64,000 nucleotides of DNA, from assembly GCA_017942165.1 (NCBI GenBank), contig JAGKSB010000004.1:1-64000 (forward strand), read 5' to 3'. The stretch comes from Rhinopithecimicrobium faecis (GTDB lineage: Bacteria > Bacteroidota > Bacteroidia > Sphingobacteriales > Sphingobacteriaceae). The position numbers were made by a program, and so were the translations under genes. Each line of letters begins with the position of its first letter. Within the stretch, counting starts at the first letter, position 1. The notes beneath the pieces were generated by a model. The model ran no database searches. It was not told the DNA's origin and saw nothing but the letters and a program-made list of their open reading frames with translations. This document shows positions 61,964-64,000 of this stretch, one piece after another.

Positions 61964-62574
61964 ATGCCTTAAAGTCATGTAAAGACACATTTACACCAAA
62001 AAACGAAAGTGATCTAAAATTCAACGATTTCCATGAAATAGACGAAGGTCTGTTTTAGGTATTTTGAAAATGGACTTAGTGCATTGGGTATTTCATAAAT
62101 AGTGGCAACATCGAAGCCTGAGCAATCCGCTATAACTTGTTTTGTAGTATATTTATGATAGTAATCCTCTATTGGAATGCCTTGTAACCTAAATCAAAAG
62201 AATGATATCATTAGCATTCAAGTTTAACATTTGAATAATGATATTAGACAAGAAACTCAAAAAAACTTCTAAGATCTTAAAGAAAGTATACGTTGGATAG
62301 AAAAAATAGCATTATATTTTAGTATATTGAAGGATAATTTTGTTTACGTCAATACTTTAAATGTTAAAAAATAAAATTACAACAACTAAATAGCTTCTTA
62401 TTTAGTTGATAAAAACGAAATGCTATAAGCCAGTATAATATTGATTTATAAAATGTGCATGATTGAACAAAAATATATAGAATTTTCAAATTCTGCTCAA
62501 TCACATAATTTATTTAGAAAAGATTGATTATTAGTGAATTTTTATATACTTGGTAAACTAATTGTTATTAAATC
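61964..62574. other. gap between tRNA-Ser and the toxin module
   Basis: About 610 bases with no intact gene. On the minus strand 62014-62193 is open for 59 codons without a start, reading like the C-terminal end of some protein (see separate entry). The rest is AT-rich with no recognisable signal. Its position just after a tRNA gene is typical of the edge of an integrated segment. Confidence 0.5.
62014..62193 (-). pseudogene. possible C-terminal gene remnant
   Basis: The minus strand is open from 62193 to a TAG at 62014-62016, preceded in frame by a TGA. The reading includes GIPIEDYYHKYTTKQVIADC and IYEIPNALSPFSKYLKQTF, which looks protein-like, but has no start codon and no family I can name. 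It may be the leftover tail of a gene cut by insertion. Confidence 0.3.
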
Positions 62575-62805
62575 GTGGGAGGAAAACCAATTCCAAGCCC
62601 CTGTTTCTTAGATACGTGCGAATATCTCGAGGCTTTTAAAAAAATTAAGAGATGGAGATCAATTGATAGGAAAAAGTTATTCACTTGGGATGCTCTTCAT
62701 GGAGAAATAGAAGTTTTCAATTATAGAGGAGCACATCTTGGTGTTTATGATCTAACAGGAGTATTAATTAAAAACGCAGTAAAAGGGAGGAAAATAGATG
62801 TTTAA
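62575..62805 (+). CDS. colicin E3-type ribonuclease domain, free-standing
   Basis: The 76-residue product reads as the catalytic domain of colicin E3, which cuts 16S rRNA at the decoding site. After a basic stretch KKIKRWRSIDRKK come LFTWDALHGEIEVF and GAHLGVYD. Asp39, His42 and Glu46 fall on the catalytic Asp, His, Glu of E3, and Arg72 on its Arg. There is no receptor-binding or export domain; an in-frame TAA (62569-62571) lies two codons upstream. No ATG or TTG occurs in the frame. GTG at 62575 lacks a ribosome site, while GGGAGG at 62577-62582 would position an ATT at 62590. The stop overlaps the next start (ATGTTTAA). Confidence 0.75.
   Translation: MGGKPIPSPCFLDTCEYLEAFKKIKRWRSIDRKKLFTWDALHGEIEVFNYRGAHLGVYDLTGVLIKNAVKGRKIDV
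62785..62790 (+). promoter_or_regulatory. strong Shine-Dalgarno sequence of the middle gene
   Basis: GGGAGG seven bases before the ATG at 62798, inside the toxin ORF. The same GGGAGGAAAA occurs at 62577-62586 near the toxin start. Confidence 0.6.
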
Positions 62806-63106
62806 TTTTATTGAAAATTGTATAAACGGAGATGCTCTAATATATGAAATCGATGATTACATTGATTCTTGGCACAATAGTGATTCTTCATTAGAATTAC
62901 ATGAATTTCTGGGTATGTCCTTAAAAGAATATGCTCTTTACCTTGAGGATGAATCTTATTTACCATGTATAATAACAGCTCATAAATCTAAGGAAAATAT
63001 AATTTCAATTATGAATGAAAATTTAGCAATTGCAGCTAGATCAGATGATGCAACGAAAGCACAAAAAATTCAAAAGTGGTTGGAGCATGAGAAATTATGG
63101 GATTAA
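62798..63106 (+). CDS. acidic 102-aa protein with LHEFLGM motif, probable antitoxin/immunity
   Basis: The small protein is acidic in its first half and contains EIDDYIDSWHNSD, LELHEFLGMSLKEYALYLED and a final helix AQKIQKWLEHEKLW. The ID.YID.WH...LHEFLGM.xxEYxLxxE pattern recurs, as far as I recall, in small uncharacterised bacterial proteins; it is not like the known E3 immunity protein. Its ATG overlaps the toxin stop by eight bases and its own stop overlaps the ImmA/IrrE start by ten, so the trio is translationally coupled. A role in neutralising the ribonuclease is inferred from position only. Confidence 0.6.
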   Translation: MFNFIENCINGDALIYEIDDYIDSWHNSDSSLELHEFLGMSLKEYALYLEDESYLPCIITAHKSKENIISIMNENLAIAARSDDATKAQKIQKWLEHEKLWD

Positions 63107-63648
63107 TTAATCATCCGGAAATAAAAATTGTTAGAAAAATATTAGCACTTCACAAACTTACAGTACCTTTTGATTTAGATGAATTGGTCTCTAAATATGC
63201 AGAGGTTATATACAAAACTATTCCTATTAGTGGAGTTGATGAAATTTGTATGAATTTAAAGTGCCCAGGAAAAAAAACCAAAGTAATTGTTAATACTTCG
63301 ACATCTGTCAATAGACAAAGATTTACATTAGCTCATGAATTAGGACATATTATTATTCCTTGGCATTTAGGAACCATTATTGATGATTTAAACATCAATA
63401 AAACAAATTCCAAATATTGGAACCTTGAAACTGAAGCAAACAGATTTGCATCTGAATTATTAATGCCTTTCGAATGGATTTATAGAAAGGTAGAAGAACA
63501 TGGGTTTAAATTCGATTTAATTTTAAGTTTAATAAAAAATGAATGTAAAGTTTCAGAAGAAGCTGTAAAGATTAGATTGAAAAGATTTTGGTATGAATTA
63601 ATGGATTACGAAATACCTAAAAAAAGATGTTATCCAATTATATGCTAG
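63097..63648 (+). CDS. ImmA/IrrE-type metallopeptidase (N-terminal part)
   Basis: The 183-residue frame has the COG2856/DUF955 zinc site AHELGHIII (HELGH at 80-84) and ETEANRFASELLMP with the third ligand Glu near 111-113, and an N-terminal winged-helix-like segment. ImmA and IrrE cleave repressors to switch on phage or stress genes. The frame stops soon after the VSEEAVKIRLKRF helix. A run of seven A (63619-63625) lies near its end, and a sequence typical of the C-terminal part of such proteins continues in the +1 frame to the window end. Confidence 0.8.
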   Translation: MGLINHPEIKIVRKILALHKLTVPFDLDELVSKYAEVIYKTIPISGVDEICMNLKCPGKKTKVIVNTSTSVNRQRFTLAHELGHIIIPWHLGTIIDDLNINKTNSKYWNLETEANRFASELLMPFEWIYRKVEEHGFKFDLILSLIKNECKVSEEAVKIRLKRFWYELMDYEIPKKRCYPIIC

Positions 63649-64000
63649 TTACGATATAGCTCATTTACATGAAATATTAACAAATAACACAAGATATTAT
63701 CCGCATGATATTGCTAGTCATATTGTTCAACACCTTGAAAATAAAGTAGCATTTGTATCAGAAAAAGACGGAATTGTTATAACTGGAGGACATAGCCCAA
63801 GGACTCGAGAAATGATACAGTATCAAGGACAAGAATTTAATGATAATCCTTATCCATTTTATAAAAATTACAAAGTATATAATAATGAATATTCTAATAC
63901 TCACTGGTGGGAATTAGATTTTGAATTAAATCAAATCGATGATAATAGAGCTTGGAGAGAAATATTGGAGGATATAATTTCCAATATTTACAAAGAAGAT
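63602..64000 (+). CDS. ImmA/IrrE C-terminal continuation in +1 frame, partial at window end
   Basis: From just after a TAA at 63599-63601 a frame stays open to base 64000 without a plausible ATG near its start. It reads DVIQLYASYDIAHLHEILTN, then KVAFVSEKDGIVITGGHSPR and THWWELDFELNQIDDNRAW. The VSEKDGIVITGGHSPRT stretch resembles the C-terminal domain that follows the peptidase domain in larger ImmA/IrrE proteins. Loss of one A in the A7 run at 63619-63625 would join it to the peptidase frame. It may be a true frameshift, a slippage site or a sequence error. Confidence 0.55.

Follow-up and report, generated by a model that had tools for sequence, protein, structure and literature searches.

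Three-component systems in which a COG2856 protease accompanies an Xre antitoxin and a RelE or PIN toxin were predicted by Makarova et al. in 2009 (PMC2701414). CapP and PprI are activated by ssDNA (PMC10904395, PMC13373217), and IrrE cuts DdrO at Leu106|Arg107 of its 129 residues, 22 from the C-terminus, in the loop between the last two helices (PMC8072749). As for toxins of the colicin E3 type, Tox-ColE3 was listed by Zhang et al. in 2012 with Imm-Cloacin and Imm45 only (PMC3482391). In the open-access literature we found no description of a free-standing E3 RNase together with an LHEFLGM (LHE) protein and a CapP-like protease, and no paper in which colicin E3, toxin-antitoxin systems and ImmA are linked.

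These three genes lie side by side at the end of the 64,000-nucleotide stretch of Rhinopithecimicrobium faecis DNA that was analysed (the window). We consider it probable that they form a mobile, protease-triggered type II-like toxin-antitoxin module, with the E3 RNase as toxin, the LHE protein as antitoxin and the CapP-like protease as trigger. The features are as follows:

62575 to 62805, plus strand: E3-type RNase, the predicted toxin; 76 aa, GTG start, match to PF09000.
62689 to 62691, 62698 to 62700, 62710 to 62712 and 62788 to 62790, plus strand: catalytic codons of the RNase for Asp39, His42, Glu46 and Arg72, respectively.
62798 to 62805, plus strand: 8 nt shared by the end of the toxin gene and the beginning of the antitoxin gene (...GRKIDV* / M[SF]N...).
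62798 to 63106, plus strand: LHEFLGM protein, the predicted antitoxin; 102 aa, pI 4.5, in a constant place directly 3' of E3.
63032 to 63043, plus strand: AARS motif, LHE residues 79-82, the predicted site of cleavage, located in a flexible linker that precedes the last helix.
63097 to 63648, plus strand: M78/ImmA-IrrE metallopeptidase by Pfam, CapP-like, N-terminal peptidase half; HELGH at 63334-63348.
63619 to 63625 (L006 3619-3625), plus strand: A7 run at which the peptidase frame changes, from frame analysis.
63626 to 64000, continuing to 64213 on the contig, plus strand: C-terminal half of the peptidase (GAF-like/helical) in another frame, from homology to the C-terminal part of intact relatives.

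A sequence-only reading made earlier had proposed three ORFs at these places, overlapping by 8 bases and, between LHE and the peptidase, by 10 bases. Re-examination of the sequence bore this out. The same reading had taken the first ORF for a lone E3-type RNase and had suggested a profile search of it. The product of 62575-62805 matches PF09000 (Cytotoxic) with E=2.5e-10 (41 bits, cut-off 22), and in a sequence search of the PDB it is matched by colicin E3 chains with E=3.8e-5. All four residues that had been aligned with the colicin active site, Asp39, His42, Glu46 and Arg72, are, like His54, invariant in an alignment of 21 out of 21 free-standing E3 homologues. An in-frame stop codon stands immediately 5' of the ORF, and its GTG start is aligned with the ATG of relatives (V-G-G-K-P-I-P as compared to M-A-G-K-P-I-P); the ORF is therefore a complete free-standing protein. 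We also considered a 5'-truncated exported toxin as its origin and rejected it, because the relatives begin at the same residue. Free-standing E3 proteins are 75-82 aa long and are predicted to be cytosolic rather than to form the C-terminus of a large exported protein. The computed pI of the toxin is 9.4 (basic), as compared to the acidic LHE protein. The free-standing RNase is predicted to cleave 16S rRNA at the decoding centre, where colicin E3 cuts between A1493 and G1494, and thereby to halt translation.

An E3 domain is a common C-terminal part of RHS toxins and bacteriocins, the window's own family included, and standalone cassettes are known among polymorphic toxins (PMC3482391). The locus could thus have come from a polymorphic toxin (RHS, CDI or bacteriocin) as an orphan cassette, in which case LHE would be its immunity protein and the protease a chance neighbour; we regard this as very improbable. 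The exported E3 toxins that were sampled (RHS proteins in L028, L029 and L076, and toxins of Bosea and Vibrio plasmids) have another small protein downstream and never LHE, namely DUF7683 in L028 and L029 and other small proteins in L076-L078. Free-standing and exported E3 domains separate in the tree (96/91), which was made from a short alignment of 15 free-standing domains and a small sample of 5 exported ones. Moreover, the own start and the protease partner of the free-standing E3 are conserved across phyla. The LHE protein does not align to the protein downstream of the exported toxin in L029, the one exported partner compared, and profile searches gave it no immunity-family match, Im3-like (Cloacin) families included. 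The earlier statement that neither a large exported toxin nor an Im3-like gene is found here is in agreement with this: the toxin is a stand-alone 76-aa ORF and the protein downstream has no immunity family.

The gene set recurs in other genomes. The GTDB collection was searched with a DNA pattern that covers the N-terminal region of LHE and is blind to E3 and ImmA, and 14 contigs from several phyla were found. Intact E3 is located directly upstream in 11 of these (L049 included) and E3 remnants in the other three (L042, L045 and L050), while the peptidase is directly downstream of LHE in 7 of the 13 loci where this could be assessed. At the genus level the hosts are Spirosoma, Hymenobacter, Solirubrum, Duganella, Nitrosomonas and Desulfosporosinus; hosts known as MAGs belong to Spirochaetaceae, Desulfovibrionaceae, Acetobacteraceae, Geobacter and Methylococcaceae, with one cyanobacterium. 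The Methylococcaceae MAG has the decayed copy L042 and a full triad at a second place (L072). An ImmA search of phage records led to MT835780 (L021), a human-gut element in which E3 (78 aa), LHE (105 aa) and ImmA (433 aa) follow in the same order as in the window, with genes for an XRE regulator and an integrase alongside. When viral contigs were in turn searched with the peptidase profile, 80 loci were kept. In the best 7 of the 80 (L079-L085) LHE is directly upstream in all seven and E3 in six; a stricter script counts 6 and 5, since the peptidase frame of L081 is broken. Weaker viral peptidase matches are other subfamilies without LHE. The neighbourhood survey proposed in the sequence-only reading thus finds the three genes together in unrelated genomes, from the LHE side as well as from the protease side. 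One viral contig (L083, 2652-3378) has an LHE protein with an AAR tail and a short ImmA without E3, adjoining a DNA polymerase gene. Profile searches across 386 genomes from the same phylum as the window gave no second LHE gene, meaning that the module is rare locally; one other E3 domain was found there, in a large protein.

A divergent version of the module is present between the immunity repressor and the integrase of the Gordonia phages Phabuloso, LitninMcQueen and Kamaru (L035, 1481-3306). Here E3 is the C-terminus of a 168-aa protein (PF09000, 4.8e-13), followed by a 284-aa LHE protein and a metalloprotease. As compared to the other copies, the C-terminus of the antitoxin is different and longer and the metalloprotease is shorter. 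The HicA-like and HicB-like annotation of these genes appears to be wrong, as profiles and sequence point to an E3 RNase and LHE.

The arrangement of toxin and antitoxin genes is well kept. Exactly the same 8-nt overlap as in the window is seen in L021, L038, L040, L041, L043, L044, L046, L047, L048 and L051, further in L071, L079, L084 and L085, and in the Gordonia phage locus; in the sub-type represented by L039, L072 and L080-L082 a short gap replaces it. The G+C content is 29% in the module region and on average 39% elsewhere in the window (1.6-kb windows, SD 2.7 points), and a tRNA-Ser gene is located about 650 bases upstream, which together suggest horizontal acquisition. Downstream of this tRNA gene, a stretch of about 100 bases (window positions 62019-62123) is 79% identical to C1:123440-123542 on another contig. 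Other copies are found beside phage repressors (L035, and a Peptidase_S24 protein in L046), an integrase-like gene (L071) or resolvases (L040, L044); an ICE setting is also seen, and L079-L085 sit in contigs classed as viral. Plausible roles are superinfection exclusion, abortive infection and maintenance of the element.

Free-standing E3 is consistently accompanied by LHE, whether or not the peptidase is present. The peptidase is missing in L038, L046 and L051, and E3 with LHE but without protease is found in Duganella, Nitrosomonas and Geobacter loci, which shows the protease to be dispensable. In three loci, of Duganella sp. BJB480 (L045), Duganella levis (L050) and the Methylococcaceae MAG (L042), the toxin is broken and the start and N-terminal domain of LHE are kept. 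Because LHE persists where the toxin decays and occurs in some loci without protease, it is likely to be the antitoxin of the E3 RNase. Profile searches gave no Pfam or NCBIfam family above cut-off for it. The AlphaFold2 model of LHE has a pLDDT of 79, with a confident helical domain at about residues 4-63 and, beyond residue 63, two more helices with a low-confidence linker between them; no significant fold match to this model was found in the PDB. The helical domain is predicted to be the toxin-binding part and the C-terminal tail a separate one.

It has to be considered that the substrates of CapP, ImmA and IrrE are transcriptional repressors (PMC13373217, PMC8072749). LHE could by likeness be a CapH-like repressor, and its cleavage by the protease would then derepress the toxin operon. 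We find this quite improbable: no HTH, RHH, AbrB or other DNA-binding family was found in LHE with Pfam/NCBIfam, the toxin gene comes first and overlaps LHE by 8 nt, and the loci with a broken toxin still keep LHE. In addition, a pure repressor would leave the toxin without antitoxin.

LHE-like proteins were also noticed outside this gene set. PHROGs of unknown function match the LHE protein, and phage or viral contigs L031, L037, L052, L053 and L054 (two of them 343 kb and 529 kb) have LHE-domain proteins without E3 or ImmA. It is possible that these lone phage proteins are decoy antitoxins or reflect another use of the domain. Isolated LHE domains on plasmids (L009-L012) have no E3 or ImmA neighbour. 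We took an LHE match to a reverse-transcriptase-like protein (L008, E=3e-4) to be spurious.

Regarding the third gene, the sequence-only reading was right about its identity and not about its extent. The product of 63097-63648 is an ImmA/IrrE metallopeptidase (Peptidase_M78 in Pfam, E=2.5e-15), and the profile of its family matches CapP (7t5t, 1.1e-13) and IrrE (3dte, 1.1e-11) in the PDB. The predicted structure of a full-length relative resembles the IrrE/PprI and CapP folds. However, ORF 3 is not the whole gene: intact relatives have 308-433 aa, and ORF 3 corresponds to their N-terminal half only, with the rest following in another frame after the A7 run. The frame change may reflect transcriptional slippage, decay or an assembly error. 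Due to the frame break the trigger may here be weakened or depend on slippage. It is also conceivable, although we doubt it, that the module in the source genome is a decaying remnant without working protease; decay of the toxin in relatives would fit with this, as does the broken frame itself. On the other hand, neither the toxin nor the antitoxin frame is broken and none of their key residues is lacking, the second half of the protease remains an open frame, and A7 runs can be passed by slippage or be assembly errors.

The link between protease and antitoxin that our preferred reading involves is suggested by the C-terminus of LHE. Every LHE protein that precedes a full-length CapP-like protease ends with [AV]AR[STA] and a WL-containing helix, and this tail is absent otherwise; the tail-less LHE proteins are mostly shorter. 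Specifically, the tail is present in 10 of 10 LHE proteins with protease and in 0 of 6 without (Fisher p=1.2e-4; p=0.005 with lineages collapsed), a count that covers few independent lineages and leaves the divergent Gordonia version outside. Extended by inspection to L079-L085 and the isolated LHE proteins L009 and L052-L054, it becomes 17 of 17 as compared to 0 of 10. In the window the AARS linker (residues 79-82) is the sole stretch of LHE with pLDDT below 50 in the AlphaFold2 model, 21 residues from the C-terminus, and its position relative to the C-terminus matches that of the DdrO cut site. Given this match and the activation of CapP and PprI by ssDNA, we infer by analogy that the CapP-like protease cuts LHE at AA|RS and that ssDNA stimulates the cleavage. 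What speaks indirectly for an LHE antitoxin that would be inactivated by the protease is the decay of the toxin alone and the restriction of the tail to protease-bearing loci.

The protease could instead be an additional neutralising component of a plain E3 and LHE pair, as ImmA-domain antitoxins are established in RosmerTA (PMC10440598). RmrA (RosmerTA antitoxin) profiles of PADLOC do match the peptidase (E=2.4e-15), and some loci have E3 and LHE without it. We consider this unlikely, since the PADLOC capP profile matches far better (E=2.2e-28), as it does in 7 of 7 relatives, and no HTH family was found on the protease by profile search. Furthermore, LHE persists next to toxin genes, intact or decayed, where the protease is missing, and must therefore be sufficient by itself, and the AAR tail of LHE is limited to protease-bearing loci.

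Similar tails were noticed in the partner proteins of ImmA in L017, L019 and L022, which were found via the peptidase regardless of LHE. The operons of L017, L019, L022 and L026 consist of a sigma-factor-like protein of about 200 aa, which has no Pfam match, a small protein ending with M[AV]AR[NK]... and ImmA. In a parallel triad on the Rhodococcus opacus plasmid pLP414 (L034, 917-3523) the toxin gene is of the zeta type and the ImmA peptidase is a related one; the middle protein, of 188 aa, ends with ALAARSDRAFNASSLSEWL, i.e. with an AARS...WL tail. We tentatively put forward a swappable design, in which an ssDNA-sensing CapP-like protease would be combined with antitoxins having a portable cleavable tail and with varied toxins (E3, zeta-type), the whole serving prophages and ICEs as anti-phage suicide switches. 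Lone phage LHE proteins might then be the decoys.

A protease-triggered module, of which the sequence-only reading had already sketched the release of the RNase by cleavage of the middle protein under stress, would work in the following way. The acidic LHE protein, made from the overlapping start, would bind and block the cytosolic E3-type RNase. During DNA damage or phage infection ssDNA would appear and the IrrE/CapP-type metallopeptidase would probably become active, like CapP and PprI. The activated protease would cut LHE in the AARS linker, and the freed toxin would stop translation by its cut in 16S rRNA, leading to growth arrest or abortive infection. If this is true, colicin E3-type ribosome killers, known as weapons against other cells, also act in their own cell, where they are controlled by a stress-sensing protease. 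The toxin-antitoxin and abortive-infection repertoire would gain a toxin class (rRNases), a family of antitoxins that has no known relatives and, with the protease, a trigger at the post-translational level. The three-component prediction of 2009 would become directly testable, with a predicted cut site given. Judging from the open-access literature, the E3 toxin class and the LHE antitoxin family appear undescribed in a toxin-antitoxin role.

Compared to known systems, the module shares the RNase domain, its catalytic residues and a small acidic partner directly downstream with colicin E3, cloacin DF13 and pyocin S6 (PF09000). In these the domain is the C-terminus of an exported toxin with Im3-type immunity, whereas in the module it is a stand-alone cytosolic protein of 75-82 aa with a helical LHE partner. 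As in type II toxin-antitoxin systems, the small genes for the predicted toxin and antitoxin are adjacent and presumably co-transcribed, their overlap is kept across phyla and the antitoxin gene outlasts the toxin gene. Type II antitoxins are usually, not universally, DNA-binding and autoregulating, and LHE is without such a family. With CapH-CapP, IrrE/PprI-DdrO and ImmA-ImmR the module has in common the M78/COG2856 protease and the partner gene directly upstream, and it resembles CapP in joining the peptidase to a GAF-like part; in its partner protein, a candidate Ala/Leu-Arg cut site lies in a loop some 22 residues short of the C-terminus. The partner in those systems is an HTH repressor; in the module it is a predicted antitoxin without HTH, and the output is a toxin of the same operon. 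Toxin, antitoxin and ImmA-type protease occur together also in the COG2856-Xre-RelE/PIN systems (PMC2701414) and in RosmerTA (RmrT-RmrA), from which the module differs by its E3-type rRNase and by an LHE antitoxin separate from an optional protease that lacks HTH. While RmrA is a fusion of HTH and ImmA, the protease of the module has no HTH, and E3 and LHE are kept without it. Finally, in CapK-CapS with VapC (EMBO J 2026, PMC13373217) an ssDNA-sensing regulator pair has been co-opted for a toxin RNase, as we propose for the module; there a kinase/STAS pair is combined with a PIN toxin, and here a protease and LHE with E3.
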